A program made the position numbers and the translations under genes. A stretch of DNA of 41,577 nucleotides from Caldisericota bacterium (lineage in GTDB: Bacteria; Caldisericota; Caldisericia; Cryosericales; Cryosericaceae). The notes beneath the pieces were generated by a model. It was not told the origin of the DNA and searched no databases. It saw nothing but the letters and a program-made list of their open reading frames with translations. The stretch is taken from NCBI GenBank assembly GCA_026390155.1, contig JAPLGL010000089.1, positions 1-41,577 of the forward strand, read 5' to 3'. Shown here in pieces: positions 16,843 to 40,317 of the stretch. The number at the start of each line of letters is the position of its first letter. Within the stretch, counting starts at the first letter, position 1.

Positions 16843-17613
16843 GTGGACCTGCTCATCATCTACTACAGCCGCGAAGGGTCCACCAGGCAGATCGCGCGGG
16901 GACTGGCACAGGCGACCGGGGGCACCGTACGGGAACTGGTGGACAGCCGCAGGATGGCAAACGGGGGCATGTTCCGTGCCCTGCTCGCTGTCATGCTTGG
17001 CCTGGAGACGACGCTGGTGAACCCCGATTACACCGTCGAACCATATGAGCGGGTCGTGATCATGACGCCGATCTGGGTGGGCCGTCCAACGCCCGCTGTC
17101 ATGACGTTCATCGGCAATGCTGTGCTCAAAGGCAAGAAAACGTTTGTCGTGGCCGTCGGCAGCACTGCGGCCAACCCAGGGGCTATCGCCAGGCTGGAGA
17201 AGCGGCTGACAGCCCGTGGAGCCCTCGTTGTCGGACATAGTGACGCACTGGGGTACATCCCAGACCCAAAGGCAGTCCGTCCATCGGGCGAGGAACTCGC
17301 TGCTGAGGGAATTCTGCTCGCACAGACCGTCCGGCAGGCGTTCGAGCCACAGTCCCGATCACAGGCTACGTCTCCTGGCACTCCAGCACAACAAGAAGGC
17401 CGGCAGCGTATAGCTGCCGGCCTGGTCACTGAGAAGCCGTTCTCCCTAGTGATGCAGCAGGCTGATCATGATCCCCGCAGCAACGGCAGTACCAATAACG
17501 CCGGCGACGTTGGGACCCATGGCGTGCATGAGGAGGAAATTGGCAGGATTGTCCTTCTGCCCGACCTTCTGGCTGACCCGCGCGGCCATGGGGACAGCCG
17601 ACACGCCAGCTGA
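16843..17613 (+). CDS. Flavodoxin-family protein with apparent C-terminal run-on into the convergent gene
   Basis: GTG start; [27 protein letters not shown]...[20 protein letters not shown]; last ~80 aa have no counterpart in the upstream paralogue. Confidence 0.8.
17398..17422 (-). terminator. Terminator-like hairpin downstream of Na+-pump decarboxylase beta subunit
   Basis: Perfect 10-bp stem GGCCGGCAGC-gtata-GCTGCCGGCC; T-rich ttcttgttgt follows on minus strand. Confidence 0.7.
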
Positions 17614-18531
17614 ACCGATGAGCGGGTTGATTTTGTGTCCGGACAGCACCCACATGAGGTCCCCCAGGAGCATCCCGCCCGCAGTGCTGAACCCGAAGGC
17701 GATGACGCCCAGTCCGATGATGTAGAGCGTCTGCTTGTTGAGGAAGGACTCCGCATTCATCGATGCGCCCACGGCGACGGACAGGAAGATCGTGCAGATG
17801 TTGATGAGCTCGTTGGCGGCTGTGTTGGTGAGCCTCTCGACCACACCGCTCTCGCGCAGCAGGTTGCCCAGCATGAGCATGCCCACGAGCGGCCCGACCG
17901 GGGGCAGCAGGATGCTGATGACGAAGGTGGTCACGATGGGAAACAGGACACGCTCGAGCTTGCCGACGGGGCGCAGCTGCTCCATGACCGTGCTGCGCAT
18001 CTCGTGCGTCGACAGTAGCCGCATGATGGGCGGCTGGATCAGCGGCACAAGGGACATGTACGTGTACGCGGCGACGGCGATTGGACCCAGCAACTCGGGG
18101 GCCAGCTTGGTCGCGGTGTAGATAGCCGTCGGCCCGTCGGCCCCTCCGATGATGCCGATGTCGCCCGCCTGGCTGATGGTGAAGTTCAGCAGTTTGGCGA
18201 TGACCATGGCAACAAAGACACCAAGTTGTGCAGCAGCGCCCAGCAGCAGCGACACGGGGTTGGCCAGCAACGGGCCGAAGTCCGTCATGGCGCCAATACC
18301 CAGAAAGATAAGCGGGGGCAGGATCTCGGACTTGACCATGAAGTAGAAGAAGTCGAGCAGGGCTGTCGGCTTGACGGTTCCGGTCAGATCACGAACGTAG
18401 TCGGGGTTGATACTGAAGAAGGCGCCCTTGGCCGCCGGGATGTTGGCGAGAAAACAGCCAAACGCAATCGGCAGCAGCAGGATCGGCTCGAAATCCTTGG
18501 CGATCGCCAGGTACATGAGCATAATGCTCAT
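17446..18531 (-). CDS. oadB: Sodium-translocating decarboxylase, beta subunit (OadB/GcdB/MmdB family)
   Basis: [71 protein letters not shown]. Confidence 0.93.
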
Positions 18532-18535
18532 AGCT

Positions 18536-19312
18536 CTACTCCATCCTCAGGAGAGGCTCGCCGGTCTTGACCGACTGGTTGACCTCGACACAGACGTCGC
18601 CGACCACACAGTCACGTGGGGCAAGGATCTCATTTTCCATCTTCATAGCTTCGATGATCAGCAGCGTGTCGCCCCGCTTGAACGCCTTGCCAGGCGCGGC
18701 AAACACCTTGAGGACCTTGCCGGGCAACGGGGATTTCATGAGGTTCGGTGCATCAGCGGTGGGCGCAGAAGGCACAGGGCGAGGTGTGGCGGTTGGAGAA
18801 GGAAGCATCGCGCGGGGAGAAGGTTGGACAACCGCAGCGGGCTGCGCAATACGCGCGGGAGTTGCCGCGACCTGACCCACAGACTGTACCACGGGCTGTG
18901 CGCCGGCTGTCTGCCCAACCCCTACTTCAAACGTCCTACCGTTGACCGTGATTCTGAAGGCACGCGATCGCGCGGTCGGAATCCTGAGGCCTCCTCCGTT
19001 CTGGGCGGCACTGCGGACACCATCTGTCCCCAGCTGACCGAGGTCAACCGTGGCTGGCATCGCCAACGGCTGTTCGGCCCCCTCACCAGTTCGCAGCGCA
19101 CGTTGAATCATCGGGAGCTCGGAGGCAGGCTCATCCCCAGCGGCGACGTCGAACTGGCCGTCTGCACCGTCGACGGGGACAACCTCACCCCGGGACCCAC
19201 GGCTGAGGAACCTCAATCCGTAGCAGACAAACATGAGAAACGCCAAGACGGCAAACACCACCAGCATGTCCACCAGGGACAACCAGAGGCTCGAAGCAAC
19301 CGTATCCGGCAT
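18536..19312 (-). CDS. Decarboxylase gamma-like membrane anchor fused to C-terminal biotinyl (BCCP) domain
   Basis: N-term [27 protein letters not shown]; Pro/Ala linker; C-term [13 protein letters not shown] biotinylation motif. Confidence 0.88.
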
Positions 19313-19549
19313 CGCCATCATCTCCTTTTCACTGATTCCATGCGCCCGGCTGGAAGGAGTCTGGCTTAGCCCGATGCCCAGACAAACGGTCTCGACATCA
19401 ACTCCAACTACTCCCAGTTTATTATATCAAATCCAGAACTGAATCAATGGAAAGAGGCTGGGGGGCTGGAACCCACTCCTTCATAGACCGCCGGCAGCCA
19501 TCCACAAGCTGACTCCAGACACGAAGACACGCGAGAACTATATGATTGC

Positions 19550-19585
19550 TGCCCTGGAGACCTGTCTACGCAGGTGTCCAGGGCA
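19550..19585. repeat. Inverted repeat, 15-bp arms, one mismatch (terminator-like)
   Basis: TGCCCTGGAgACCTG-tctacg-CAGGTgTCCAGGGCA just beyond the stop of CDS 19620. Confidence 0.65.
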
Positions 19586-19619
19586 GACCATCCACGTTTC
19601 TTCTTTGACGTGCTCTCTC

Positions 19620-20354
19620 TTAGTCGACCTTCTCCCTCATCGTGGCCAGTATCTGTGAGACATTTCCAAATCTTGCGTTTCTTGTCTGCACTTTCAGAAG
19701 GTACTCTGATGCCTTGACTTTGTCGCCCTTGCTGAGATAAGCAATACCTAAACCAAAAGAAACAGCAAGTTCATTTTCGTTCATGGGAAGGGATGCAGAA
19801 TCATACCGGCTCAAGACTTCAATTGCGCCATCGTAGTCTTTCATGTCATAGAGAGCCGAGCCCAATAGCCTGACCGTCTTGATCGTACGCTCTTCAACTG
19901 GGATCGCCGTCAACAGTTCCTTTGTCTTCTGAATATCGCCTGCAAAGTAGAAGAAGCTCCCAATGAGAAATCTTACAAAGGGTGTATCACTCGCATCCAT
20001 CTTTATGTACAGTTTGGATGATGCGGCCTTGAAGGTATCGAGATTCTTCCTCTGTTGTCCGAATATCTTGACAAGATTTTCCTCATTCGCATTCAGCCTG
20101 GCAGATGCCAGCATACAATCGACTGCTTTGTCTACTTCCTTCCTATCAAGGTGCTTTTTGGCTTTCTGCATCAAGTGAGACGCTTTGTAATCGTAGGAAA
20201 GCAGGTACACAAGATAAATGGCAAAGGAGACGAAAAGGCACATGGCACCAAACAGCCACTTGTCCCTGAAAAACACGGAAAAAATGCTGATGATCAGGCC
20301 AATCGTCGAGATGGAAAGCAGGAGTTTGGGGAAGCTTCGAATTCTGAACATCAA
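19620..20354 (-). CDS. Membrane-anchored TPR-like protein
   Basis: Two N-terminal TM segments then helical repeats (AKKHLDRKEVDKAVDCMLASARL..., YDMKDYDGAIEVLSRY). Confidence 0.65.
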   Translation of the reverse strand: MMFRIRSFPKLLLSISTIGLIISIFSVFFRDKWLFGAMCLFVSFAIYLVYLLSYDYKASHLMQKAKKHLDRKEVDKAVDCMLASARLNANEENLVKIFGQQRKNLDTFKAASSKLYIKMDASDTPFVRFLIGSFFYFAGDIQKTKELLTAIPVEERTIKTVRLLGSALYDMKDYDGAIEVLSRYDSASLPMNENELAVSFGLGIAYLSKGDKVKASEYLLKVQTRNARFGNVSQILATMREKVD

Positions 20355-20397
20355 CTGGTCTCCTTGTTGTTACTGCTCTTCAGTATGCAGACAGAAA

Positions 20398-20417
20398 GGG
20401 AGGGCATACGCCCTCCC
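20398..20417 (-). terminator. Rho-independent terminator downstream of NCS2 permease
   Basis: GGGAGGGC-atac-GCCCTCCC; minus-strand tract TTTCTGT follows. Confidence 0.75.
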
Positions 20418-20445
20418 CACAAGAGGAACTACCTGAAGAAGTATC

Positions 20446-21855
20446 CTAGTCTCTTACTCCAATACCTCTTTCCTTGTCAGTACCGGGGACAAGGTTGTCA
20501 AGAATACCAGCAGTAATACCACCAACAGCCATACCATTCTTGAGAAGACCGTTGAAGATGCCCGCAAGCCATTCTGCGTTGGCGAAGACAATCGTATGCT
20601 GTGCCATATATCCGGGAAGTCCAAGGCCAAGAGCGAATGCAAAACCGAAAATCAAGAGGTTTCTCATGGATGTTACATCTGCACGAGTAAATACCTGGAG
20701 TCCAAGTGCACCGATGAGACCGAACAGCGAAAGATACGCCGCACCAATAATCGGGGAAGGAATCGTTCCAATGACTGTGCCAAACTTCCAGAGGAAGCCC
20801 AACACGATAAGAATGACTGCACCGGTTCTAATAACCCTTCTTGAAGCAATACCTGTAAGGGCAACAATACCGATGTTCTCGGTGTAACTAGTGGTCCCTA
20901 CGCCACCCATCATACCTGAGATGATGCAGCCGAGTCCTTCTGCGCCGATACCCATTGAAATCGTTTTCGCAGAAGGATCTTTGAGTCCTGATGCATAGCT
21001 GATGCTGTGGTAGTCTCCAATTGACTCAATTATTGAAGAAGTATACGCTGCGATAATTGCCGTGAAGGCCAGCGTGTTGAACTTCAGCGTCTGCCCAACG
21101 CTGCCGTAACGGAAAAGTGTGGGCCAGACAATCCACGGCGCTCCGGAAATTGCCTGAAAGTTGATATGCATTGAGTTGCCCGCTGGAAACCAACCGACAA
21201 GTGTTCCAAGCACTGCAACCAGATAAAGAGTGATCATCGAAAGAAAGACCGGGAACGCATTGAGATTCTTGTTCTTTATGATCAGGGCAAAGACAAAGAT
21301 GAGTGCTACTCCCAGAAGAGAGACAATCCAGTTGGATGATGCGGTGCTGACTGCTGTTCCAGCGAGGCCAAAGCCGATCAACATGATTGTTGGCCCTATG
21401 ACAACAGGGGTGACTATCTTCTTGAGAAGCCCGACGAGTCTTGAGTAGCCAACAACCAATTCATAGATACCGCCATAGAATAGTGCTCCGCCGAGAGCCT
21501 GCATCATCTCGTTGACTCCGCCGCCATTGTTCTTCACGCTGGTAAAGATGATCACGGCAGCTGGAATGAATGAGAACGACGAGCCCTGTACTATCGGAAG
21601 ACTAGAGCCAATTCTTGCGTCGCACTGGATGAGCGTTGCAATACCCGTTACCATATAAACGGTTGCGATAAGGATGCCCAGTTGCTGAGAGTTCATTCCC
21701 ATCGCCTGTCCAAAGAGAATCGGCACAAGCGTCGTCGCTCCGAACAGTGTGAGAATGTGCTGGAGTCCTGCAACAATCGAGAAACCCCATGACGGATATG
21801 AATCCACGGGCCACGGGACTACTCGAGTCTTGAATGCACCTTGCTCTTCTGACAT
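20446..21855 (-). CDS. NCS2-family xanthine/uracil permease
   Basis: GLQHILTLFGATTLVPILFG, SIIESIGDYHSISYASG, GGVGTTSYTENIGIVALTGIASR; RBS gggggagg. Confidence 0.93.
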   Translation of the reverse strand: MSEEQGAFKTRVVPWPVDSYPSWGFSIVAGLQHILTLFGATTLVPILFGQAMGMNSQQLGILIATVYMVTGIATLIQCDARIGSSLPIVQGSSFSFIPAAVIIFTSVKNNGGGVNEMMQALGGALFYGGIYELVVGYSRLVGLLKKIVTPVVIGPTIMLIGFGLAGTAVSTASSNWIVSLLGVALIFVFALIIKNKNLNAFPVFLSMITLYLVAVLGTLVGWFPAGNSMHINFQAISGAPWIVWPTLFRYGSVGQTLKFNTLAFTAIIAAYTSSIIESIGDYHSISYASGLKDPSAKTISMGIGAEGLGCIISGMMGGVGTTSYTENIGIVALTGIASRRVIRTGAVILIVLGFLWKFGTVIGTIPSPIIGAAYLSLFGLIGALGLQVFTRADVTSMRNLLIFGFAFALGLGLPGYMAQHTIVFANAEWLAGIFNGLLKNGMAVGGITAGILDNLVPGTDKERGIGVRD

Positions 21856-22013
21856 TTGGAACCTCCCCCTATCCCTTGTCATCGCTCTCATTGGAGGCGA
21901 TTACGACTCCGGTCTTTCCAACATGACTCTGCTCAAGCCTCTTGACGATGCCAGCACCTCCCTTTCTGCAAGATACCTCCAAAGCCGTTTCCTGGACTTC
22001 CCCCTATTCTGCA

Positions 22014-24362
22014 TTATAGTGATTTTCCGGTTTCTTCCTTCAAAGCCTGCACAATCTTTTCAGCTGTCATTGGCGGGCTCTTTATGCGTATGCCAAGTGC
22101 GTTTTCAATCGCATTGGCGACAGCGGGCATCACTGGAATCATTGTATGCTCTCCGACCCCTCTTGCTCCAAACGGACCATCAAGCTGTGGCACCTCAACA
22201 ATGATAGAGTGCATCTCGCGAGGGGCGTCAAGAGATGTCGGGATCTTGTAATCAGTGAAGTTCGGATTGCGTATTCTGCCTTCTTCGTCAAAGATGACCT
22301 CTTCCCAGAGAGCCGTCCCAAGACCTTGGACAAACCCACCCTCAATCTGCCCTTTGACGAGGTCAGGATTGATGGCTTTTCCTGCATCAAAGGCTTCTGC
22401 CATTCTCAGGACCCTGACTCTGCCTGTTTCCTTGTCAATTTCAATTTCAACGGCACCTGCACCAGTTGTGTAGTGCACGTTCGGGTGTCCTCCCATGCCT
22501 GTTTCGGGGTCTACTTTGGCTGACGTAAACTCTGGCATAAAGGAACCCCTTCCAAGAACTGGGCCTCCTCGGAAAGTCCCGTCCGACATCTGTATACCGT
22601 TGATGACAAATTCCTCCAGAGGAAGCGCAAAGTCAGGCTTCGCATGGCACTTTACCGTCCCATCTTCCAGATAGAGGTCTGCTTCCTCGATGTGATGTGC
22701 GATAGAAACCACGTTGATGATCTGATTCCTGGCATCAATTGCAGCACGTCTTACGGCATTGCCACAACTCCATGTAACGTGTGAAGCAACCGTCTGCCAT
22801 TCGTACGGGTTTCTATCAGTATCTGGAAGCTCCACCCTGACTTTTTCAAGTGGAAGCCCAAGCTCCTCGGCGGCGATCTTGCCCATCGCCGTCATGAAGC
22901 CCTGGCCAAGCTCCATTCCTGAAACAAGTATGTTGATGCTTGCATCTTCATTGAACTTGATGAATGCCGCAGATGATTCATTCGCGGGCATAGCCGGTGC
23001 TTTCCACACCAAGGCAAAACCTTTGCCTCTCACTCTATTAACATCATCTGATTTGCTTTCCTTGCCCCATTCAATTGCCTTGGCAACTTCATCGATACAC
23101 TTCAGTATTCCTGTTGGGCCCATTTCAACGCCGTAGGCGACAGTGTCTCCTTCTTGAATGGCATTCTTCTTCCTGAATTCAACGGGGTCCATGTTTAACG
23201 CCTTGGCGATCCTGTCGATATGGCTTTCAATTCCAAAATGGAACTCAGAATAGCCAAATCCCCTGTAAGCCCCGCATGGAGGCCTGTTTGTATAGATCGC
23301 ATATGAGTCAATCCAGACGTTTGGAATCCTGTAGGGGCCAGTTGCAGAGAAGCCGGTTGCATTGACGACGTTTGAACCATACTCAGCCGAAGCTCCGACA
23401 TCCCAGAACAGCTGATGCTTGAGGGCAACTATTGTGCCGTCGTTCTTTACGCCCATCTTGACATACGCTTTCAGTTCCTGCCTCTGGGAAGTGTTCTGGA
23501 ACTCATCTTTCCGCGAGTATCTGATCTTGACTGGATGGCCTGGCACTTTCATTGCGCAGGCAGCTGCGATGACTTCCATATTGACTCCTGCCTTGCCGCC
23601 AAAACCACCACCGACATAAGGAGTAATGATCCTTACATCCTTGTGTTTCAGGTTCAAGACGTTTGCAAGAATGTTCCTTTGCGTGTGTGGGGACTGAGTG
23701 GAGTTCCACATCGTCAATCTGCCGTCGAACGTATAAAGTGCTGCCGAAACGTGCGTTTCGATCGGCGCATGCACAACGTGAGGTATGTGATACCAGTCTT
23801 CGAGAATGTAATCAGCCTCTTCAAACGCCTTCTCAACGTCGCCCTTCCTTATCTTTCTGAGATGGGCGATATTTGTGCCGGGCTGCGGATAAAGCCATGG
23901 AACAACTTCGTAGTCTCCGAGATCTGGATGAATGAGTACCGCATCTGGCTTGAGTGCTTCAAGGGGGTCTTGAAGGACTGGAAGTGGCTCATACTCCACC
24001 TTGACAAGGCTTATGGCCTTGTCTGCTATTCCCTGAGAGGATGCCACTACTGCCGCAACCTGCTGACCGACATAGCGAACCCTGTCCCTTGCAAACAGCT
24101 GGCTGTCCTTCAGATAGAGCCCGCATGTTCCCGGACAATCCTGCCCGGAAAGCACTGCATGTACCCCTGGCACTTGTTCTGCATCGCTCGTATTGATGCT
24201 CTTGATTGTTGCATGAGCATAGGGGCTTCCGAGAATCGCCGCGTACAGCATGCCTGGACCGAGGTCGATATCATCAGCATATTTCGCTGTTGCTGTGATC
24301 TTCTCAAGACCATCAAGCCTCACGGCATTGTGGCCAACTAGCTTAAGATCCAATTCTGTCAT
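22014..24362 (-). CDS. Molybdenum hydroxylase (xanthine dehydrogenase family), molybdopterin-binding subunit
   Basis: YVGGGFGGKAGVNMEV, CGAYRGFGYSEFHFGIES, SGMELGQGFMTAMGKIAAEELG, FGARGVGEHTMIP. Confidence 0.95.
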   Translation of the reverse strand: MTELDLKLVGHNAVRLDGLEKITATAKYADDIDLGPGMLYAAILGSPYAHATIKSINTSDAEQVPGVHAVLSGQDCPGTCGLYLKDSQLFARDRVRYVGQQVAAVVASSQGIADKAISLVKVEYEPLPVLQDPLEALKPDAVLIHPDLGDYEVVPWLYPQPGTNIAHLRKIRKGDVEKAFEEADYILEDWYHIPHVVHAPIETHVSAALYTFDGRLTMWNSTQSPHTQRNILANVLNLKHKDVRIITPYVGGGFGGKAGVNMEVIAAACAMKVPGHPVKIRYSRKDEFQNTSQRQELKAYVKMGVKNDGTIVALKHQLFWDVGASAEYGSNVVNATGFSATGPYRIPNVWIDSYAIYTNRPPCGAYRGFGYSEFHFGIESHIDRIAKALNMDPVEFRKKNAIQEGDTVAYGVEMGPTGILKCIDEVAKAIEWGKESKSDDVNRVRGKGFALVWKAPAMPANESSAAFIKFNEDASINILVSGMELGQGFMTAMGKIAAEELGLPLEKVRVELPDTDRNPYEWQTVASHVTWSCGNAVRRAAIDARNQIINVVSIAHHIEEADLYLEDGTVKCHAKPDFALPLEEFVINGIQMSDGTFRGGPVLGRGSFMPEFTSAKVDPETGMGGHPNVHYTTGAGAVEIEIDKETGRVRVLRMAEAFDAGKAINPDLVKGQIEGGFVQGLGTALWEEVIFDEEGRIRNPNFTDYKIPTSLDAPREMHSIIVEVPQLDGPFGARGVGEHTMIPVMPAVANAIENALGIRIKSPPMTAEKIVQALKEETGKSL

Positions 24363-24371
24363 GTCTCCTGC

Positions 24372-24833
24372 CTATTCACTTCTTGTTACGTCAACAATTG
24401 CATCAACGACGCTCCCATAGCCCGTACACCTGCAAAGGTTGCCGGCGATTGCCTCCCGTATCTCTTCTTCGCCCGGGTGGGGATTGCTTGTCAGAAGCTC
24501 CGTTGCAGAGATTATTATCCCAGGGGCACAGAAACCGCACTGGAAGGAGTTATGAGCCAGAAAAGACTCCTGCAAAGGCGTAAGTCCGTCCTTTTCAAGC
24601 CCCTCCACCGTGACAATCTCCTGTCCATCTGCTTCAACTGCATACATGATGCAAGTTCTTACACTCTTCCCATTCAGGAGAACAGAGCAAGCTCCACACT
24701 CTCCTCTTCCACAGCCATACTTGGGACTCTTGACGCCAAGCTTGTCTCTCAGGACGTCAAGAAGCTTCTCGTGCGGTTCAACAGCAACCGTTGTCTCATA
24801 TCCATTCAGTTTGAGCGTTATCTCTTTCTTCAT
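24372..24833 (-). CDS. Molybdenum hydroxylase, [2Fe-2S] subunit
   Basis: YGCGRGECGACSVLLNG and QCGFCAPGIIIS...GNLCRCTGYGSVVDA. Confidence 0.96.
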   Translation of the reverse strand: MKKEITLKLNGYETTVAVEPHEKLLDVLRDKLGVKSPKYGCGRGECGACSVLLNGKSVRTCIMYAVEADGQEIVTVEGLEKDGLTPLQESFLAHNSFQCGFCAPGIIISATELLTSNPHPGEEEIREAIAGNLCRCTGYGSVVDAIVDVTRSE

Positions 24834-24842
24834 CTGCCCCTC

Positions 24843-25724
24843 CTACACAAGGCTCATGCCGTACTCAGGGTCCTTGCCTTGAAGTCTTGAGGATGATGCC
24901 CTCAAAGATCTCTTGAGAAGTACGCCACTGATATGTACCCTGTACTCCTTGCTTGCACGGACATCTGAAATTGGTGAAATTGATTTCATGGCAAGAGGAA
25001 CCGCCTGCTCAAGAACACTTTCGGTCAGAACCCGGTCTTTCAAGAACTCCTCGGCCTCATAGGCCCTCACAGGCTTTGGAGCAACTGCACCGAACGCTAT
25101 TCTGACAGCTCCCTCATCATTCACGAAAGTACCGACGCCTACCTGGGCAAGGTCTTCTCCGTCATAACGACCCATTTTGATATAGTTCGAGCCGAAGGAA
25201 CCCGAGGGAAGGGGCAATCTGATTCCCGTGACAATGTCTCCTGGAACAAGGACGGTTCTTCTTGGCCCTAGGAAGAAGTCTGCTATGGGCACTTCTCTGG
25301 CTCCTGCCCTATTCTGCACCACAACCAGAGCCTGAAGCACAAGGAGCGCAGGAGCAGAATCAGCCGATGGAACAGCAGAGCAGATATTGCCCACGAGCGT
25401 CGCCCTGTTCCTTACGCCATTTGATGCGACAGTGCGGGACGCCTCCCACAGAACTGGAAAGTGATCGCGCACCGCAGATGACTCAATGAGCTCACTAAAG
25501 GTAACGCTCGCACCTATTTCGAGGTGACTGTCAGCAAGCTCAAGCCTCCTGAATTCCGGCACGCCCTTTAGGTCAACAAGATAGTCGGGCGCCACCAAGT
25601 TGTTGTCAATATTCACCACAAGATCCGTTCCGCCCATCAGAATCTGTGCGAGATTGCCACATTTCTCGTACAACTCAAGAGCTTCAACCAGCGTTGACGG
25701 CTTGAAGTAGTCGAATGTCTTCAT
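24843..25724 (-). CDS. Molybdenum hydroxylase, FAD-binding subunit
   Basis: MKTFDYFKPSTLVEALEL, LMGGTDLVVNI, ATLVGNICSAVPSADSAPALL. Confidence 0.95.
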   Translation of the reverse strand: MKTFDYFKPSTLVEALELYEKCGNLAQILMGGTDLVVNIDNNLVAPDYLVDLKGVPEFRRLELADSHLEIGASVTFSELIESSAVRDHFPVLWEASRTVASNGVRNRATLVGNICSAVPSADSAPALLVLQALVVVQNRAGAREVPIADFFLGPRRTVLVPGDIVTGIRLPLPSGSFGSNYIKMGRYDGEDLAQVGVGTFVNDEGAVRIAFGAVAPKPVRAYEAEEFLKDRVLTESVLEQAVPLAMKSISPISDVRASKEYRVHISGVLLKRSLRASSSRLQGKDPEYGMSLV

Positions 25725-25733
25725 GGAGCCCCC

Positions 25734-26549
25734 TTACGGAGCCCACGCAACAATTCTCGACCAGGCAGACTCCATCTCGATACCTTTCACGTTGAACGCT
25801 CCCATGTACACTCTCTGGTTGTTCAGTTTGTCGATATCTCCACCCAGGTTTTCAGCATGAACAAGCCCTTTGGGGAAGAGTTTGAGGTGCATAATCTGGT
25901 AGAATTCTTCCGTTGGGAACATCTCATCCCAGCTCTTGCCGTATGTTGCCTGGAGCTTCTTGTCAGCTTCAATGAAAAGGTTCGGATGCCAGTTTCTGAG
26001 AATGGTGTTCATGGGGTGGTCTGCACTGCCGCAATCCACGCCAATCCACTTGAACTTCATATCAAGCGCCCATTGCGCAAATGCCGGGCTTGGTCCCGGA
26101 TGTTTCACCATATATCGTACTTCATCGCAGTCCTTCTCGTACCAGGCATATCTGTGATAGCCTGTATTGATGATGAGAATGTCCCCAGGATGAATTTCAG
26201 CTTTCTTCATGAGCATTTCTGGAGTGTAGAGGTCGTAGTCCCCGACCTCATCCGAAATGTCAACGATAACGCCAGGGCCAACCCACTCTTCGAGAGGCAC
26301 TTTCCCGATAGGTCTTCCAGCGCTGTAGAAATGGATCTCGCCATCCATGTGAGTGCCCACGTGGTTGCTTGAAGTGATAATCTGACCATTTGCTCCCTGT
26401 CCTCTGTCTGCTCCCGCGATTCTCTTGAAATACTGGAGCCCAAGTGGCATGTAGCTCGGCCACGGTGGCGTATGGATGCTCAAAGGCTGAGTGAGGTCGT
26501 ACATCTTCACTTCCCCGGTCATGAACTTGATGAATTCTTCTGCGTTCAT
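25734..26549 (-). CDS. Cyclase-family (PF04199-type) metal-dependent hydrolase
   Basis: DLTQPLSIHTPPWP, SSNHVGTHMDGEIHF metal site, ILIINTGYHRYAW, WIGVDCGSADHPMN. Confidence 0.88.
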   Translation of the reverse strand: MNAEEFIKFMTGEVKMYDLTQPLSIHTPPWPSYMPLGLQYFKRIAGADRGQGANGQIITSSNHVGTHMDGEIHFYSAGRPIGKVPLEEWVGPGVIVDISDEVGDYDLYTPEMLMKKAEIHPGDILIINTGYHRYAWYEKDCDEVRYMVKHPGPSPAFAQWALDMKFKWIGVDCGSADHPMNTILRNWHPNLFIEADKKLQATYGKSWDEMFPTEEFYQIMHLKLFPKGLVHAENLGGDIDKLNNQRVYMGAFNVKGIEMESAWSRIVAWAP

Positions 26550-26563
26550 GGAAACCTCCCCTT

Positions 26564-27808
26564 CTAGGCGTACTTTTTTGAAAGTGCTATGATAGCCTTC
26601 TTGAAGACCGCCATTGGTGCATCGACAAGTCCCGCTCCAACCTGGCCAACACCGGGATTCTTATGAGCTATGCCCGTATCTATGAATGGCAGAAGCCCTT
26701 TCTCAACGACAAGCCGCACGTCAATTCCAGTAGGAGTGCCTCTGAAATTCAGGTAAGGCACCTGATAAGCAGTGTTTTCTCCAATAGTAATCTCGTACAT
26801 CGACAGTGTTTTGTTCAGTGCGTCTCTTGGCGTTCCTCCCGTAAACTGGACTATTGCAGGAGCGGCTCCGATGGCAAAACCCCCAAGGCCTGCTGTTTCC
26901 ATGATAGAACTGTCACCAATGTCCGGGTTGGCGTCCTCTTTGGTGAAGCCCGCAAAATAGAGGGCGTTGGGTGGAACTTCTGCGGGAGCTGTAAACCATT
27001 CATCCCCAAGCCCCGAAACCTGAATCCCGAAGTCAGTGCCATTTCTCGCCATACAAACAACCATTGTGCTTCCCTCGATATCCCTTGCAGGATCAAGGCT
27101 TGCTTTTGCAGTAGCCATCGAGAGATTGAGGAACGTATGGTCATTGCCATCGATGAACCTGAGTACCTTCTCAATGACAAGCGGGTCGCTCGTCGTTCGT
27201 ACCATAGCAGGGGCAATGGCCCTGTAGAACAGAGACGTTGCACCTCTGTTTCTGTTGTGCAGCTCGTCTCCCATGTGGAGTGCTTGGGCAATGATGCTCT
27301 TCATGTCCATTCCGCCAAGAAAACGTATGGCTCTATCGAGTGTCGGATAGAGAACCTCTTCCATCCATTTCAATCGCTCGATGACATCAGGAGAGTACGC
27401 GCCCATTCGCAGAACCTTGCCAAGCCCTTCGTTCATCGTCGCATAGGACTTGTTCCCAAACGCTGCGTTCTCTATGATGTAGACAGGCATGGATGGGGAC
27501 ACAATGCCTGCCATCGGCCCGACAGCCTGATGGTGGTGGCAGGGAGAGAATTCGATCTGGCCGGATGCGGCAAGGGCCTCTGCTTCTTCCTTCGTGTGTG
27601 CCATGCCTTCATAGATGAGAGCCGCAATAACCCCACCTTTCATTGGGCCGCACATTCTGTCCCATGTGACTGGCGGCCCTGAATGCAGGATCATGTTCGT
27701 CTTCATTCCAGGCACGATATCAATGGCCTTGCCCATTCCAACCAGCTCTGGTGTCGCCGAAACAAGTCTTCTAAGTGCTTCTATGTTTGCTTTGGCTATG
27801 TCAACCAT
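26564..27808 (-). CDS. allG: DUF1116 protein, AllG (YlbE)-like subunit of oxamate carbamoyltransferase
   Basis: LHSGPPVTWDRMCGPMKGGVIAALIYEG, PCHHHQAVGPMAGIVSPSMPVYIIENAAFGNKSYATMNEGLGKVLRMGAY; RBS aaggaga. Confidence 0.88.
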   Translation of the reverse strand: MVDIAKANIEALRRLVSATPELVGMGKAIDIVPGMKTNMILHSGPPVTWDRMCGPMKGGVIAALIYEGMAHTKEEAEALAASGQIEFSPCHHHQAVGPMAGIVSPSMPVYIIENAAFGNKSYATMNEGLGKVLRMGAYSPDVIERLKWMEEVLYPTLDRAIRFLGGMDMKSIIAQALHMGDELHNRNRGATSLFYRAIAPAMVRTTSDPLVIEKVLRFIDGNDHTFLNLSMATAKASLDPARDIEGSTMVVCMARNGTDFGIQVSGLGDEWFTAPAEVPPNALYFAGFTKEDANPDIGDSSIMETAGLGGFAIGAAPAIVQFTGGTPRDALNKTLSMYEITIGENTAYQVPYLNFRGTPTGIDVRLVVEKGLLPFIDTGIAHKNPGVGQVGAGLVDAPMAVFKKAIIALSKKYA

Positions 27809-27839
27809 GTATCTCTCCTTTTGACTCTCTTGATGTGCA

Positions 27840-28013
27840 TTACTTGCCGATCAGTTTTCTGAGTGCTTCCATTGCCTCCTCATCCCCACCTGCCGGCGGT
27901 CTCCAATCAACCTGGACAACCTTGAACCCTTCCTGCTCCAGGCTTTCCTTGAAAGAAGTCAGCCCCACATTGATCACCTTCAGCTCTGAGGTAAATAGAT
28001 CGAGTGTTTTCAT
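27840..28013 (-). CDS. 57-aa FdrA-associated small protein (not in supplied ORF track)
   Basis: TAATG overlap with allF stop; MKTLDLFTSELKVINVGLTSFKESLEQEGFKVVQVDWRPPAGGDEEAMEALRKLIGK*. Confidence 0.8.
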   Translation of the reverse strand: MKTLDLFTSELKVINVGLTSFKESLEQEGFKVVQVDWRPPAGGDEEAMEALRKLIGK

Positions 28014-29569
28014 TAGTTGCCTCTTGGACTCTGAAGGATATATCCTGCCAGCCTTGATGCTGAAGCGTTTCTTTCAAGCACAATTGCACCTGCATCCTTG
28101 TACATCTTGACGATCTTGTGCTTATCCTGAGGATCCCTGCCAGTGCCTGTTACAGTGACAATGATAAGAGCATTCCCCGCGTTTCTGGCCTCGGAAATAA
28201 CCGGGGTAAGTTCCTCGCCCGGGTTGGGGTTGGTACCGTGCCCAATAACCACGTCAAGGTAGATTACTGCAACGCTCTTGTCGCGAGCCTCTTCCAGAAT
28301 TCTCTTGTTTCTCAGGGAAAAATCAATCTGGGGGTGAGGGCGTCCTACCGTAAACTCATCCTCGCCGAGGTCAACCACTGTATGCCCAACGCTTCTCCAT
28401 GAATCTGCAAGTCTCAGCTTCGGGTCAAGCGGTGCGTTGGAGTTGATAACACCAATCATGTCCTTAAGGATCACCTGTGTCTCATATGCAAGAGTGCCGC
28501 CCTGGAAGAGTCCCCTCACGTATCTTTGCTCTGGTTGAAGCTGTCCTGCAAGGCCTTTGGCAAGCTCCTTGAGCTCGTTTTCGCTCTCCTCTATCTCCTT
28601 GTTGAACTGTTCCATGGATATGCCTTTCGACAAACTCACGGAGAGCAAGGCAGCCTCCTCGAGGTTTGATGCAGGAATTGCACCAATACTCTTAACAAGT
28701 GCCGGGTCTGCTCCAAGGAACACTGCAACAACAGGCTTCCTGTTTGTCTTCAGCACTTCGCCGATGCGCTCAAGCACTTCTGGGTGAGGTGGTTTGGAAA
28801 TGAGCGTTATGACCCTCGTTTGAGGGTCTGCAATGAGAGCCTCCACTCCCGTCAGGAATGAAAGGCCCCCAAATTCCTTCTTCATGTCAATCCCGCCCGT
28901 GCCAATGCCTTGAGAGATGCCACAGCCTTCGTTTGAGATAATTGATGAGACTTCCTGAAGTCCAGTGCCTGCGGCAGAAACAATCCCGATGTCGCCACGA
29001 TTGACAACATTCGCGAAGCCAAGTGGTGCCCCGTTGATAATGGCTGTGCCGCAGTCAGGGCCCATCACTAGAAGTCCCCTCTCCCGTCCCAGCTTCTTGA
29101 CCTCGAGCGTTTTGTCTCTTGGGACGTTGTCCGAGAAGATCATCACGTGCAAATCATGCTGAAGAGCCTTCATGGCCTCTTCTGCCGCATACTTACCCGC
29201 AACAGAGATGATCACCATATTCGCTCCTGGCAGTACATTGATGGCACTTTCGATGCTCTTGGGCATGTATTCAGAGGAATCTGATGTTTTCTGTCTGCTC
29301 TTCTCCAACAATTCCTCGGTCTTCTTGAGCCCGGAGACAGCTGCGGCTTCATCCTTTGCTTTTACGGCAATGATCAGGTCGTTATCAGAGGCATCCCTGA
29401 ATTCATCGAGAAGCATTTCAGACATCTCGAGAATGGACTTGTTCTGAGCGGTACCCATCACAATTGTGGCATCGATGACCCCATCAATCTTGGAAGCATC
29501 ACGGGCGACCAGCATGAGGGTTACGGAATCAAAGTACTCGCCCTTCCTGATTACTCCTTTAGCAACCAT
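28013..29569 (-). CDS. allF: AllF/FdrA-like (acyl-CoA synthetase fold) subunit of oxamate carbamoyltransferase
   Basis: VMGPDCGTAIINGAPLGFANVVNRGDIGIVSAAGTGLQEVSSIISNEGCGISQGIGTGGIDM; 518 aa. Confidence 0.92.
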   Translation of the reverse strand: MVAKGVIRKGEYFDSVTLMLVARDASKIDGVIDATIVMGTAQNKSILEMSEMLLDEFRDASDNDLIIAVKAKDEAAAVSGLKKTEELLEKSRQKTSDSSEYMPKSIESAINVLPGANMVIISVAGKYAAEEAMKALQHDLHVMIFSDNVPRDKTLEVKKLGRERGLLVMGPDCGTAIINGAPLGFANVVNRGDIGIVSAAGTGLQEVSSIISNEGCGISQGIGTGGIDMKKEFGGLSFLTGVEALIADPQTRVITLISKPPHPEVLERIGEVLKTNRKPVVAVFLGADPALVKSIGAIPASNLEEAALLSVSLSKGISMEQFNKEIEESENELKELAKGLAGQLQPEQRYVRGLFQGGTLAYETQVILKDMIGVINSNAPLDPKLRLADSWRSVGHTVVDLGEDEFTVGRPHPQIDFSLRNKRILEEARDKSVAVIYLDVVIGHGTNPNPGEELTPVISEARNAGNALIIVTVTGTGRDPQDKHKIVKMYKDAGAIVLERNASASRLAGYILQSPRGN

Positions 29570-30459
29570 GGTAAGCCTCCCTTGTAGAACTGTTTCATGG
29601 AGATAGTGAATCCTGTGGACACGTCTGCTCCAGAAGTCTCCCCGATGTCGAGAAACCTGGAGGCAGCATCATGAATCCTGGTCCTGTTGTGCGCAAGAGC
29701 GTCGAGCAGATCCTTGAACTTCTCGTAGACTCTTCCCAGCGAAGCGTACAGCAGGAAGCTGTTTGAGATTTCATTGGAAGTCCTCGCCCTGTTGTATATG
29801 TCATGCCTCAGACCTTCGGTTGGAAGTTGCTTCATCAATCCGTACGCATAGATGGCAATCAGAGTCCCGCTGATGAGGTCATCACCCTGGGGAGTCAGTC
29901 CAAAACCAGCGCCCTTCAGGAGATCGACCTCTTCAATAGAGCCGTTCAAGAATCCTGCATAGGAACGGCGCAGGTGGTCTCTCACACCTATTTCGAAGGG
30001 CGTACTGAAGAAGCCTGCTCTCCTTTCGTCAAGCATGAACGCACAGCTCAACGGTGAGGCTTCACGTATGACGATCTGTTCCAGGAAGTGAAGGTTTGTC
30101 AGAAACTCGCTTGAATCGTGTTCGTCCAGAACAGGCCTTGAATCAAAGACTCCGGCATTACTGAAGTCAATGACAGTGAGATGACAAGCACATTCTTCAC
30201 GACCGGTCAAGAAAGTCAAGTCAGCACTGTCCACGACAATATTGTTCGGTCCTGAACCTATGGCAGGCGTGACAATGGAAACAAGTCTTCCATCAACTAT
30301 GCAGTTGATGACATGTCTGAAGGCAGTATGAACTACGCCCCGCTTTGCATTCAGGTCAATGTCATCGCCAACCGAAACTGCCACTATGTTCACGCTGTTC
30401 CCGGCTTCCTCCAGAAGCGAAGGCACCCCCAGACAAAACGCTGGGGGTGCCCAACTCAC
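29551..30459 (-). CDS. allH: DUF2877 protein, AllH (YlbF)-like; start uncertain (GTG 30393 is an alternative)
   Basis: GAGFGLTPQGDDLISGTLIAIYAYG typical of DUF2877; overlaps allF start; upstream-most GTG lies inside a hairpin. Confidence 0.82.
   Translation of the reverse strand: MSWAPPAFCLGVPSLLEEAGNSVNIVAVSVGDDIDLNAKRGVVHTAFRHVINCIVDGRLVSIVTPAIGSGPNNIVVDSADLTFLTGREECACHLTVIDFSNAGVFDSRPVLDEHDSSEFLTNLHFLEQIVIREASPLSCAFMLDERRAGFFSTPFEIGVRDHLRRSYAGFLNGSIEEVDLLKGAGFGLTPQGDDLISGTLIAIYAYGLMKQLPTEGLRHDIYNRARTSNEISNSFLLYASLGRVYEKFKDLLDALAHNRTRIHDAASRFLDIGETSGADVSTGFTISMKQFYKGGLPWLLKE
30422..30451 (-). promoter_or_regulatory. Strong hairpin in allH leader/start region (attenuator-like)
   Basis: Perfect 11-bp stem GGCACCCCCAG / CTGGGGGTGCC with 8-nt loop. 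Confidence 0.55.
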
Positions 30460-30640
30460 TTATGACTAGACTTCCACTGTCTTTGGAACCCGAGAGGTTC
30501 CTGCCGTCTTCAAGGCGTCCAAGGGAACGGCGCTCGTCAATAACGCTCCAACCATAGCCACGAGACATCTCTGTGCTATCTTGTTCCAGTATTCTTCCGG
30601 CATAGAGCTCCCTCTGTGGAGAACCATCCGTACCCGATCC

Positions 30641-31309
30641 TTAAGTAATGCAGTGCGCATGGACCAGCGCCTCCTTGATGGCAGTATCCACTCTCTCTTT
30701 GCCCCATTCGATGTTACGCTGGATGCTGCTGGCAGCTGCTTCACGGTCCCGCCTGCCGATGGCATCCAGAATTGCCAGATGATCCAGACAGGTTGTTTTG
30801 AGACGTTCGGGATCGGTTATGTCGGAAAGCCGGACAAAGTGGATTTGCTGATCGATATCCTTCAACATGCGCTGCATGACCCGATTTTGCGCAGCCTCTG
30901 CGAGAATCTCGTGAAAACGCTCGTCCTCAAGCACTGCCTGTTCAGCCATGCTGGGAAGTGCGTCATACAGCTGCTGCCAACGTTGTGCCAGGTTGCAGCG
31001 AACAGACTCATCCATCCCGTTCGTGCAGACGATGTCGATCACTGCCAGCTCCAGCACCAACCGGGTATCATACAATTCGTTGATCTCCCTGCTATCGACG
31101 TGGCGCACCGCATATCCCTTGTGTTCCATCTTGTCGATCAGGGAAGCCTCGACGAGCATATTCAGGGCTTCACGCACAGGGCTTCGACTCACCTTGAATT
31201 CGTCACTTATCTCCTGTTCGGTGAGGCGCTGTCCGGGTGGATACACCCAAGTGCTGATGCGGTGGAAAAGGGTCCTGTAAATCTCGCCGCTCATGTTGCG
31301 CCTAGTCAT
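30641..31309 (-). CDS. GntR family regulator, FadR/FCD subfamily
   Basis: N-term wHTH IYRTLFHRISTWVYPPGQRLTEQEISDEFKVSRSPVREALNML; C-term all-helical FCD with ERFHEILAEAAQNRVM. Confidence 0.92.
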   Translation of the reverse strand: MTRRNMSGEIYRTLFHRISTWVYPPGQRLTEQEISDEFKVSRSPVREALNMLVEASLIDKMEHKGYAVRHVDSREINELYDTRLVLELAVIDIVCTNGMDESVRCNLAQRWQQLYDALPSMAEQAVLEDERFHEILAEAAQNRVMQRMLKDIDQQIHFVRLSDITDPERLKTTCLDHLAILDAIGRRDREAAASSIQRNIEWGKERVDTAIKEALVHAHCIT

Positions 31310-31330
31310 GGCCAAATCCTTCGTCAACAC

Positions 31331-31714
31331 CTATTCTTTGAATACGAACACATTCACCGGCTTGCCAGGCCGTTCGTCCGACTCCTTGACCGTGGCATTC
31401 AGTTTCATGCCAGTCTTCGGTTCTTCTACTTCCAGCTGTCCAGATGCCCTCAGTCCGTTTTCGAACTGGACAATCCCGAACAACAGGTACTTCTCGGTGT
31501 ATCCTTCCGGCAAATTCCACACCCGAGTCCAGGTTAGGAGTACGCAGGATCCCTCCAAGTTAAAGGTCTCCCATCCCTTCCCGGTAAGCGGATCTCGTCG
31601 TGCGGAGCACTTTCCACAAACCATGGGGGCTGGATAATACACGGTACCACAGGTGAGGCATTTGTAAGCCTTGATTGTTGGTGCCGTGGCTCCGTACATA
31701 CTGAAATCTATCAT
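31331..31714 (-). CDS. DUF35-type Zn-ribbon/OB-fold protein
   Basis: YKCLTCGTVYYPAPMVCGKCSARR zinc ribbon; GSCVLLTWTRVWNLPEGY...LFGIVQFENGLRASGQL OB; RBS ggggtgag. Confidence 0.88.
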   Translation of the reverse strand: MIDFSMYGATAPTIKAYKCLTCGTVYYPAPMVCGKCSARRDPLTGKGWETFNLEGSCVLLTWTRVWNLPEGYTEKYLLFGIVQFENGLRASGQLEVEEPKTGMKLNATVKESDERPGKPVNVFVFKE

Positions 31715-31724
31715 GTTCTCACCC

Positions 31725-32924
31725 CTAGTCCTTCGCACAGATAAGCGCGACCACGTTGTTACCGAATCCTCCGAAATTGACGGACATGCCGTATCTAGGA
31801 TTCCTCACCTGGCGCCCTTCCTCTGCCTCTCCACGAAGCTGCCTGACGAGTTCCACTGCCTGGGATATACCGGTCGCGCCTACGGGATGACCTTTGGATT
31901 TGAGGCCCCCGGAAGTGTTGATCGGAAGTCGCCCATCAATTTCGGTTTCCCCCTTGCGAACAGCCAGGAAACTCGTTCCCCGCTCAAAGAATCCGACTTC
32001 CTCACTGATGGCCAATTCCAGGATGGTGAAGGCATCATGGAGTTCCGCAAAGGAGATATCCTCTGGTCCCACGCCTGCCATCTTGTAGGCCTTTCCCGCG
32101 GCCAACCTGACCGCATCGAGGCGCAGCGGATCCTTGCGGTTATGCACGCAATGGGTGTCCGTCGCACTGGCAACTCCCGCGATACGGACAGGTTTCTTCT
32201 TGAACTCCTTCACCTTCGGAGAATCCATGTTCACCAGGAGCAGTGCCGCCGCCCCGTCGGAGACTGGACAGGTGGAATACATGCGCAGGGGTTCTGCAAT
32301 GTAGTTGTTCACCACAGCCGCCTCGGGTCCATCGGCGATAGCCTCGATGGTACAGGGAGCTTGGATGTGCGCGTACTTGTTCTTGGCACCATTCTTGTGG
32401 TTCTTCACCGCCACGAGGGCGAGATCCCGCTCTGTCAGGCCATACTTTTCCATGTATAGCCGTGTGAACATGCCTCCAAATGCAGGCAGGGTCAACCCCA
32501 TGTTGTATTCCGCTTCGGTCTCGAGCATCGTAGCCACCACGTCGGTGGCATTCCAGCCGCTCACCTTGCGCATGATTTCTCCACCTACCACCAGGACGAT
32601 ATCGGCCATGCCAGAAGCAACAGCCATATAGCCGATCTTGATGGCGCTGGCCCCCGATGCCGGTCCGTTCTCGACCAGTTCAGCGGGCACTGGCTCCATG
32701 TCCATGCGACTAACCAGGGAAGAGGCCACAGCTGATTGATGGCAGAACATTCCGGAGGCCATGTTGCCGACTATGACCTGATCGATTTCTCGCCTTCGCT
32801 CAAGGAATCCAGCATCCTCGAGGGCGTTGGTAGCCGCATAAGCCATGACGTCCGCCAAATCGTACTCGGACGAGTTGCCAAACCGCGTATGCCCGATCCC
32901 GACAATGCCTACCTTGATAGCCAT
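31725..32924 (-). CDS. Thiolase-fold (SCP2-like) protein lacking the nucleophilic Cys
   Basis: VGIVGIGHTRFGN, VENGPASGASAIKIG (C->P), ELHDAFTILELAISEEVGF, NTSGGLKSKGHPVGATGISQAVEL. Confidence 0.9.
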   Translation of the reverse strand: MAIKVGIVGIGHTRFGNSSEYDLADVMAYAATNALEDAGFLERRREIDQVIVGNMASGMFCHQSAVASSLVSRMDMEPVPAELVENGPASGASAIKIGYMAVASGMADIVLVVGGEIMRKVSGWNATDVVATMLETEAEYNMGLTLPAFGGMFTRLYMEKYGLTERDLALVAVKNHKNGAKNKYAHIQAPCTIEAIADGPEAAVVNNYIAEPLRMYSTCPVSDGAAALLLVNMDSPKVKEFKKKPVRIAGVASATDTHCVHNRKDPLRLDAVRLAAGKAYKMAGVGPEDISFAELHDAFTILELAISEEVGFFERGTSFLAVRKGETEIDGRLPINTSGGLKSKGHPVGATGISQAVELVRQLRGEAEEGRQVRNPRYGMSVNFGGFGNNVVALICAKD

Positions 32925-32927
32925 GTA

Positions 32928-33614
32928 TTATCTCTTGAAGCCGGGAATCTGGACATACTCGCTCGGCATGATGAGTTTGTTGGCCGATTTGAGGTCCTCT
33001 TCAGAAACGGGACGCGTTCCAGTGCATTTCACTTCTCTCGCCGCGTCCCAGAGTTTCCGCGTGAGTGCAAATGTGGGGACGCCACCCAGCTCGCTGCGCA
33101 CTTCGGGGTACTGCGAAGAACGATCCTCAAGCTGCAGCTCAATCATCCAGCGCTTGAATCCGATCGGACTCTCTGCAACGATATACACCTCTTCCTCGCC
33201 CAGGACATCGATATGATGCTCCATCTTCGCTGCAAAGAGCTGAGCTCCGACCCGGAGGCCCCTCTTGATGGCCAGGGTATGCAGGCTCATACCGAGTCTG
33301 TTCGTGACGTGGCGGCTGTTCACGATCCCCGCGATGACTCCATCGATGGAACCGACAAGCACGAATTCGTTGGCCACCCGATAGCGATACCATGCCAGCA
33401 CCTCGGAATACATGCGGGCAGCAACAATGTCATAGTAGTCGGCTGACACACCGATGAGAGGGTAAATGGTTCCAAGCAGGATGCCGGTCTCCTCGCGTCT
33501 CGCCTCACGGACAACCATCTTCTCCCCGGAAGCAAGCGTAATGACTTTGCTCGGATAGGGCTTGAGTGGAATCTCCGGTGGTCTGAGTTTCTTCTCCAAC
33601 TCATCAATAGCCAT
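32928..33614 (-). CDS. GNAT-like acyltransferase-fold protein
   Basis: Region LHTLAIKRGLRVGAQLFAAKMEHHIDVLGEEEVYIVAES-PIGFKRWMIELQLE resembles GNAT motif A/B; RBS aaggaggt. Confidence 0.5.
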   Translation of the reverse strand: MAIDELEKKLRPPEIPLKPYPSKVITLASGEKMVVREARREETGILLGTIYPLIGVSADYYDIVAARMYSEVLAWYRYRVANEFVLVGSIDGVIAGIVNSRHVTNRLGMSLHTLAIKRGLRVGAQLFAAKMEHHIDVLGEEEVYIVAESPIGFKRWMIELQLEDRSSQYPEVRSELGGVPTFALTRKLWDAAREVKCTGTRPVSEEDLKSANKLIMPSEYVQIPGFKR

Positions 33615-33705
33615 GATGTACCTCCTTCTGCGCGGCTGCTTGAGCCATCGCATCACATGAATCCCGGGTCTTCGCGCACAAAACGATCTGCCGTACGTCC
33701 ATCAT
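33604..33705 (-). CDS. Possible 33-aa leader ORF overlapping GNAT-like start
   Basis: gaggagatgatctcATG; MMDVRQIVLCAKTRDSCDAMAQAAAQKEVHHGY*; overlaps 33614 start by 11 nt. Confidence 0.35.
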   Translation of the reverse strand: MMDVRQIVLCAKTRDSCDAMAQAAAQKEVHHGY

Positions 33706-33806
33706 GAGATCATCTCCTCTTAGGGGGCTCCTCGCGAAACCAAGGTTTCGTATTCTCCATCGTACCCGTCTCCTCCGATGTAAACAGCGTTTGCGGGAAT
33801 AGTCGA

Positions 33807-33834
33807 ATTATATGCATGGTTGTATACAAGTCAA
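33807..33834 (-). promoter_or_regulatory. Promoter for GNAT/thiolase/DUF35/gntR operon with GntR-type operator in the spacer
   Basis: Minus strand TTGACT - 16 bp - TATAAT; perfect palindrome TTGTATACAA at 33820-33829. Confidence 0.75.
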
Positions 33835-33884
33835 GAAAGCCGGGTTACTGCTCAGCCTGTTGGTGGACTGGATTAGGTGGACCG

Positions 33885-40270: not shown

Positions 40271-40317
40271 TCAATTGTGAATCCCATGGTGTCAGACACC
40301 ATGGGATTCACAATTGA
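40271..40317. repeat. Perfect 23-bp inverted repeat with 1-nt centre
   Basis: TCAATTGTGAATCCCATGGTGTC-a-GACACCATGGGATTCACAATTGA. Confidence 0.95.

Follow-up and report, generated by a model that had tools for sequence, protein, structure and literature searches.

The window analysed here is the whole stretch of 41,577 nucleotides (positions 1 to 41,577 of contig JAPLGL010000089.1, assembly GCA_026390155.1, forward strand) from a Caldisericota bacterium of the family Cryosericaceae. The genome (G000) is a metagenome-assembled genome (MAG) of 1.61 Mb with a completeness of 80.6% and a contamination of 5.3%. The window contains an operon that combines a molybdenum (Mo) hydroxylase, a cyclase-family metal hydrolase, the carbamoyltransferase subunits AllF, AllG and AllH, and a nucleobase permease of the NCS2 family. 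Nine genes on the minus strand at 20446-30459 are all open and collinear, and nearly all match curated family models; reading frames and family models thus bear out the gene order given in an initial annotation of this DNA. From AllH onwards, these genes encode the AllH subunit (29551-30459; PF11392, 71 bits, cut-off 25), the main part of the AllF (FdrA) subunit (28013-29569; NF004760, 479.9 bits, cut-off 433), orf57 (27840-28013), the AllG subunit (26564-27808; PF06545, 328 bits) and the cyclase-family metal hydrolase (25734-26549; PF04199, 119.9 bits). They are followed by the flavin adenine dinucleotide (FAD) subunit (24843-25724; PF00941 and PF03450), the [2Fe-2S] subunit (24372-24833; PF01799 and PF00111) and the Mo (molybdopterin) subunit (22014-24362; PF01315/PF02738/PF20256) of a hydroxylase of a non-xanthine subfamily. 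The last gene of the operon encodes the NCS2 permease, which has a UraA-type ENxG motif (20446-21891; PF00860, 240.5 bits). AllH and AllF overlap by 19 bp and AllF and orf57 by 1 bp; the remaining gaps are 9-31 bp, and ~120 bp separate the genes for the Mo subunit and the permease. Downstream of the permease gene, on the same strand, lies a terminator-like hairpin (20397-20418) with a 9-pair stem and a T-rich tail, which was recognised by a consensus match only.

While the nine genes stand, the initial annotation let the operon begin at AllH and missed its upstream third. The operon extends upstream of AllH to 33656 through almost gapless genes on the same strand, which encode a GntR/FCD transcriptional regulator (30641-31330; PF00392 and PF07729), a zf-ChsH2/DUF35-type OB-fold protein (31331-31738; PF12172), its partner, a thiolase-superfamily protein without the catalytic Cys (31725-32924; PF22691/PF00108), and, as the product of the first operon gene, X242 (32928-33656). 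X242 has no significant Pfam or NCBIfam match and is predicted by AlphaFold2 and Foldseek to have a GNAT fold. The OB-fold, thiolase-like and GNAT-fold genes recur next to the same core in other phyla. The operon is a new combination of known families; we found no account of it in open-licence PMC papers on the topics DUF1116/DUF2877, barbiturase, uracil dehydrogenase and malonamidase.

Scanned against one genome per species, the cyclase alignment gave at least 550 relatives, and the 80 best of these were kept; co-occurrence of the cyclase and AllG was scored in 118 related genomes. AllG was detected in 28 of these genomes and the cyclase clade in 29. Both were present in 27 of the 30 genomes that have either; two genomes had only the cyclase, one only AllG and 88 neither (Fisher p ~3e-23, uncorrected for the relatedness of the genomes). 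Synteny was counted in the 27 related loci with complete ±10 kb flanks, with neighbouring genes called by a simple open reading frame script rather than a gene finder and with possible misassembly of loci from MAGs. In 23 of these loci, which span about ten phyla, the genes for AllF, AllG, the cyclase and the FAD, 2Fe-2S and Mo subunits were all present and in every case on one strand. Among the remaining four, two lack AllG, one lacks the Mo gene within the available stretch, and one (L099) lacks AllH, AllF and AllG. The genes are usually arranged as AllH-AllF-orf57-AllG-cyclase-FAD-FeS-Mo, and many Elusimicrobiota place the AllHFG block after the Mo gene. The same operon is also present on the complete 1.56-Mb chromosome of G028 (Caldisericaceae). 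The conserved linkage predicted in the initial annotation is therefore found in other genomes, and we conclude that the operon linkage is real, old and far beyond chance.

AllF, AllG and AllH are all encoded in the operon of the window and have 39%, 44% and 25% identity, respectively, to the E. coli proteins. The gene orf57, which had been listed as a gene of its own, matches E. coli AllF at residues 511-554 (39% identity over 44 residues, E 4.6e-8), and in the congeners G013 (L034) and G004 (L036), at ~7.3-10.6 kb, AllF, orf57 and AllG form a single frame of ~1,040-1,050 codons. Thus, orf57 encodes the C-terminal domain of AllF, detached from the rest of the subunit, and the natural fusion suggests that the subunits form a complex. 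In the AllG tree, the window protein groups with the copies from Caldisericaceae (support 99/95), and the operon AllG clade is distant from E. coli AllG. E. coli AllFGH cleaves oxalurate, an N-acylurea, with phosphate (PMC11326118). As in the allFGHK oxamic transcarbamylase operon of E. coli, homologues of AllF, AllG and AllH are encoded together in one operon and a carbamate kinase-like protein in the genome; by contrast, the C-terminal domain of AllF is detached in the window, and AllFGH is linked to a Mo hydroxylase and a PF04199 hydrolase. Moreover, the operon contains no gene for carbamate kinase (AllK), its neighbourhood contains no allantoin or ureidoglycolate genes, and G000 has no allantoinase match at E 1e-20, in agreement with the initial annotation. 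The latter had also placed a carbamate kinase elsewhere in the genome, and a gene for a 361-residue carbamate kinase-like protein, scoring below the curated cut-offs, is indeed located on contig C140. A carbamate kinase match was obtained in 24 of 26 operon genomes, and in 27 of the 28 genomes with AllG vs 42 of the 90 others. On C140, the kinase-like gene is flanked by two different genes for ornithine-type carbamoyltransferases (L151, 7261-10427).

The cyclase of the window scores over the cut-off of PF04199, has the metal motif HxxxHxD...H and has no match to PF09663. The motif, H63xxxH67xD69xxxH73, is invariant in the aligned clade (alignment A1). The nearest solved structures are KynB and isatin hydrolase (best PDB E 4.6e-12). 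The cyclase shares the fold family and the N-terminal metal-ligand motif with kynurenine formamidase and isatin hydrolase; however, it is distant from both in sequence and belongs to a subfamily of its own, in which nine aligned proteins are 53-88% identical to the window copy. AtzD/Bar (PF09663) was detected in none of 16 operon genomes in a search that was run without a positive control. At four loci (L044, L048, L049 and L045), a protein of ~545 residues with a double cyclase domain adjoins AllG, and at L048 and L049 it is additional to a single cyclase elsewhere in the operon.

The hydroxylase has the three-subunit Mo/FAD/2Fe-2S architecture of the xanthine dehydrogenase (XDH) family together with the catalytic Glu, and Glu738 is kept in 63 of the 63 homologues covering the position. 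However, Ala258 and Ala335 of the window Mo subunit align with Glu232 and Arg310 of R. capsulatus XDH, and Ala occupies both of these substrate-binding positions in 62 of 64 operon homologues, the exceptions being the diverged loci L041 and L050. Thus, the hydroxylase lacks both of the residues with which XDH binds purines. The hydroxylase in a separate purine cluster of G016 (Caldisericaceae) carries the motif GGGFGTKQE instead. Overall, the Mo subunit is closest to 4-hydroxybenzoyl-CoA reductase and, in its central part, to nicotinate dehydrogenase.

The window permease aligns with the TYGENIG sequence of UraA and has Glu at the substrate motif. The motif was found in 19 operon permeases from two NCS2 subfamilies, and every one of them has Glu at this position. 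The best specific model is uracil permease for the permeases of Cloacimonadota and RutG for those of Bryobacterales; the window permease did not reach the cut-off of the curated uracil permease model (119.7 bits, cut-off 477).

Three accessory modules occur next to the core, never together: a family III CoA-transferase with an amidase-signature enzyme (11 loci), a nitrilase/omega-amidase-like enzyme (7 loci), and the GNAT-fold protein, alone or accompanied by the thiolase-like/OB pair (8 loci, and a further one that has just the thiolase-like gene). The last of these is the module of the window; 13 loci, many of them truncated, show no module. That the modules exclude one another suggests a common product for all three to act on, an amide of a dicarboxylate. 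The closest solved structures of the amidase of the relatives are all malonamidase E2 (E 1.4e-44; next family 2e-35), and the amidase keeps Ser155 and Arg158 of malonamidase E2, the 1obk structure being apparently an Arg158Gln variant. The CoA-transferase is closest to YfdE and succinate-hydroxymethylglutarate CoA-transferase (SUGCT), both of which act on dicarboxylates. In the thiolase-like protein, ENGPASG replaces the CASG nucleophile motif, with Pro for Cys, in 11 of 11 operon copies, and both His motifs are kept; the repurposed steroid aldolase Ltp2 likewise has no nucleophilic Cys. The OB-fold protein has a weak match to BbsA of benzoylsuccinyl-CoA thiolase. For X242, the AlphaFold2 model (pLDDT 86.5) matched E. 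coli PatZ best in Foldseek (9isq, E 3.7e-7), together with many other GNATs at TM-scores of only ~0.4-0.5 on the query. Linkage of its gene with this core recurs in Caldisericota, Cloacimonadota, Ignavibacteriota, Verrucomicrobia and others. Malonyl-CoA decarboxylase was considered as an identity for this protein and rejected; the top 50 Foldseek matches listed are generic GNATs with PatZ first, and include no such enzyme.

The flanks of window positions 19465-34450 (right edge ~34450 to 34535) abut in four congeners with gaps of ~40-380 bp, at 19464|34451 (G010), 19466|34532 (G013), 19456|34533 (G002) and 19454|34536 (G009). Therefore, the whole operon is located on a ~15-kb genomic island, which at least four congeners lack at this site. 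The congener G005 carries the left junction through a TPR gene into the NCS2 gene, up to its contig end. The GC content is 0.50-0.52 in the core vs 0.58-0.66 in the flanks. AllF, AllG, the cyclase, the Mo, FeS and FAD subunits and the permease of the window are 59-88% identical to those of four Caldisericaceae loci vs 38-58% to the copies, where present, of the congener G004 (L036); for the GNAT/thiolase-like/OB module, identity to its G004 counterpart is 88-92%. The AllG tree agrees with this pattern. Judged from these identities, the operon is a mosaic in which the core of one clade travels with the accessory module of another, suggesting that core and module work together.

The known oxidative pyrimidine pathway proceeds from uracil to barbiturate and employs the barbiturase Bar and a ureidomalonase; counted by AtzD/Bar homologues, this type of breakdown has been called rare (PMC3758960). 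We suggest that the operon encodes a different route. In the general scheme, which the gene context makes probable, a cyclic ureide would be converted to an N-acylurea, and the latter to an amide and carbamoyl phosphate. That the substrate is uracil or thymine, the simplest choice, is to us an evenly balanced proposition. The operon is best explained by a phosphorolytic pathway for a cyclic ureide, with uracil and/or thymine as the likeliest substrate, although we place this only a shade above even. Gene content, gene order, conservation, residues and co-occurrence are observed here, whereas the substrate, each of the reactions and their direction are inferred. In this pathway, the NCS2 permease would import the base, the Mo hydroxylase would oxidise uracil or thymine at C6 to barbiturate or 5-methylbarbiturate, and the PF04199 hydrolase would open the cyclic imide to ureidomalonate, an N-acylurea. 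Together with phosphate, AllFGH would then convert ureidomalonate to malonamate and carbamoyl phosphate, in parallel to the reaction of E. coli AllFGH on oxalurate, and a carbamate kinase encoded elsewhere would turn carbamoyl phosphate into ATP, NH3 and CO2. Opening of the barbiturate ring gives an N-acylurea of this kind, and malonamate as the product of its cleavage would be in keeping with the malonamidase-like enzyme. In relatives, a malonamidase-like or omega-amidase-like enzyme would hydrolyse the amide, and in some of them the family III CoA-transferase would activate the dicarboxylate; in the window, the GNAT-fold protein and the Cys-less thiolase/OB-fold pair may fill the amide-processing slot. 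Barbiturate and ureidomalonate would be intermediates as in the oxidative pyrimidine pathway; by contrast, the ring would be opened by a PF04199 enzyme, and cleavage would be phosphorolytic and yield carbamoyl phosphate instead of urea.

The initial annotation had offered the sequence uracil to barbiturate to ureidomalonate as one version of the pathway. With uracil as a presumed substrate, this version has circumstantial support from the UraA-type motif, the malonamidase E2-like amidase, the dicarboxylate CoA-transferases, the lack of the xanthine residues and the separate purine clusters described below. Several observations weigh against it. A PreA-type dihydropyrimidine dehydrogenase subunit scores over the cut-off in the window genome and in Caldisericaceae, where the genes lie inside another Mo-hydroxylase cluster, and hence pyrimidines may also be degraded by a reductive route. 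In the genus of the window, nearly all genomes encode carbamate kinase, with or without the operon, so that the co-occurrence test is weak there. The operon of the window has neither amidase nor CoA-transferase, and no reaction is assigned to its GNAT/thiolase-like module. Compared with the uracil model, pbuX, the model of xanthine permeases, gives the window permease a higher score (229.7 bits, cut-off 414). Finally, a xanthine-type permease and a dihydropyrimidinase/allantoinase-like enzyme are encoded in haloarchaeal loci with a related cyclase, where the hydroxylase has an identity of only 27%. These loci are on plasmids of Halostagnicola, Natronococcus, Natrinema and Halorussus and combine the cyclase with the Mo hydroxylase, NCS2 permeases and the dihydropyrimidinase-like enzyme; over all 12 plasmid matches, one of which is in Rhodococcus, cyclase identity is 38.9-46.4%. 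In favour of a pyrimidine substrate, the Halostagnicola locus contains a cytosine deaminase and a cytosine permease, both over the cut-off; the Halorussus vallis locus contains a Cys-less thiolase, an OB protein and a CoA-transferase, and some haloarchaeal cyclase copies do not adjoin a hydroxylase. Because one permease there is xanthine-type, the haloarchaeal evidence is mixed. The loci L135, L137, L141, L142 and L143 on large haloarchaeal plasmids have sets of cyclase, Mo hydroxylase and NCS2 permease without AllFGH.

The last two points against uracil would suit a purine pathway, in which xanthine, urate or a ureide derived from them would be the substrate of the hydroxylase and the cyclase, and the carbamoyl group of the ring-opened product would be removed by AllFGH. 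Membership of the permease in the NCS2 family is compatible with such a pathway as well, and pbuX is its best specific model, albeit below the cut-off. However, the permease has Glu and not Gln at the substrate motif, the two XDH substrate residues are replaced by Ala in nearly all operon hydroxylases, and G016 and G028 have purine clusters separate from the operon, with an SsnA-type aminohydrolase, adenine deaminase and allantoinase-type enzymes; the assignments in G028 are based on resemblance to the genes of G016. The G016 cluster adds a carbamoyltransferase, a carbamate kinase and its own Mo hydroxylase, and each of the two genomes carries yet another Mo-hydroxylase cluster. In those organisms, the separate clusters argue against the operon as the route for purines. 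The operon resembles anaerobic purine clusters (SsnA, YgeW-type carbamoyltransferase, carbamate kinase) in that a Mo hydroxylase would feed carbamoyl phosphate formation and carbamate kinase, but its carbamoyltransferase is non-homologous and in Caldisericaceae such a cluster exists separately. Altogether, we consider a purine substrate quite unlikely. Only slightly less unlikely is an imidazolidine substrate (parabanate/hydantoin), for which the hydroxylase would make parabanate, the cyclase oxalurate, AllFGH oxamate and carbamoyl phosphate, and amidases oxalate. The passage of PMC3364942 that cites a 1965 paper has parabanic acid inducing oxamate transcarbamylase in a Streptococcus. Oxalurate is the known substrate of E. 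coli AllFGH, and YfdE, the CoA-transferase closest by sequence, is an oxalate enzyme. Yet oxalyl-CoA decarboxylase was over the cut-off in none of 24 operon genomes, which disfavours the oxalate branch, and the operon AllG clade is far from the E. coli protein. To our knowledge, oxidation of hydantoin at an sp3 carbon is atypical of this hydroxylase family, which also counts against this substrate.

The similarities of the Mo subunit to 4-hydroxybenzoyl-CoA reductase and nicotinate dehydrogenase, and of the Cys-less thiolase and its OB partner to the Ltp2/Sal steroid aldolases, would fit another N-heterocycle (pyridine, pterin or a flavin fragment). In that case, AllFGH would act on another ureido or amide intermediate, and the thiolase-like module might perform CoA-linked C-C chemistry. 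Such a substrate is hard to reconcile with a uracil-type permease motif and an N-acylurea-cleaving enzyme, and most operons are without the thiolase-like module; we regard it as improbable. The low GC content of the core, and the completeness and contamination of the MAG, could also point to functionally unrelated neighbours or a chimeric contig. By contrast, the same operon is present in the complete chromosome of G028 and in many other genomes, the left junction is also found in G005, and the empty site is clean in four congeners; unrelated neighbours or a chimera are thus a very remote explanation, which the conserved linkage already contradicts.

A uracil/thymine pathway would have consequences beyond the window. 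It is possible, although we put it somewhat below even, that a widespread phosphorolytic oxidative pyrimidine pathway exists in which PF04199 provides a second barbiturase family, not homologous to the first, and the AllFGH clade acts as a ureidomalonate transcarbamylase. If so, genes would be assigned to uracil/thymine dehydrogenase, and anaerobes would gain ATP from uracil via carbamoyl phosphate. Free nucleobases would serve uncultured anaerobes of about ten phyla, including Caldisericota, Elusimicrobiota, Cloacimonadota, Ignavibacteriota, Bacteroidota and Verrucomicrobiota, as a source of nitrogen and, through substrate-level phosphorylation, of energy. Oxidative pyrimidine breakdown would then be common, under another enzyme set than AtzD/Bar. 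The proposal offers testable functions for several protein groups that have none assigned, namely the GKAG hydroxylase clade, the PF04199 clade, the GNAT-fold protein and the Cys-less thiolase-like protein.

Two further arrangements around AllG were observed. The loci L041 and L050 (genomes G050 and G049) represent a diverged second cluster type with AllG, a cyclase (30% identity) and a Mo hydroxylase (35-37%), together with a TRZ/ATZ-type amidohydrolase, a class III aminotransferase, a nitroreductase-like protein and an ABC transporter; this type probably has a different substrate. Locus L046 (G103) contains AllH-AllF-AllG, a 513-residue permease-like membrane protein and a carbamate kinase, without cyclase or hydroxylase, and its gene content suggests a minimal uptake-and-phosphorolysis set. 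In the window genome, contig C146 (L154) carries a PreT/PreA-type pair, and the same contig holds a second OadB/biotin-carrier pair that is paralogous to window positions 17446-19321. Finally, a dispersed palindromic repeat of ~45 bp lies at ~40271-40317 of the window, and both of its strands match at many sites in the window genome and in congeners.

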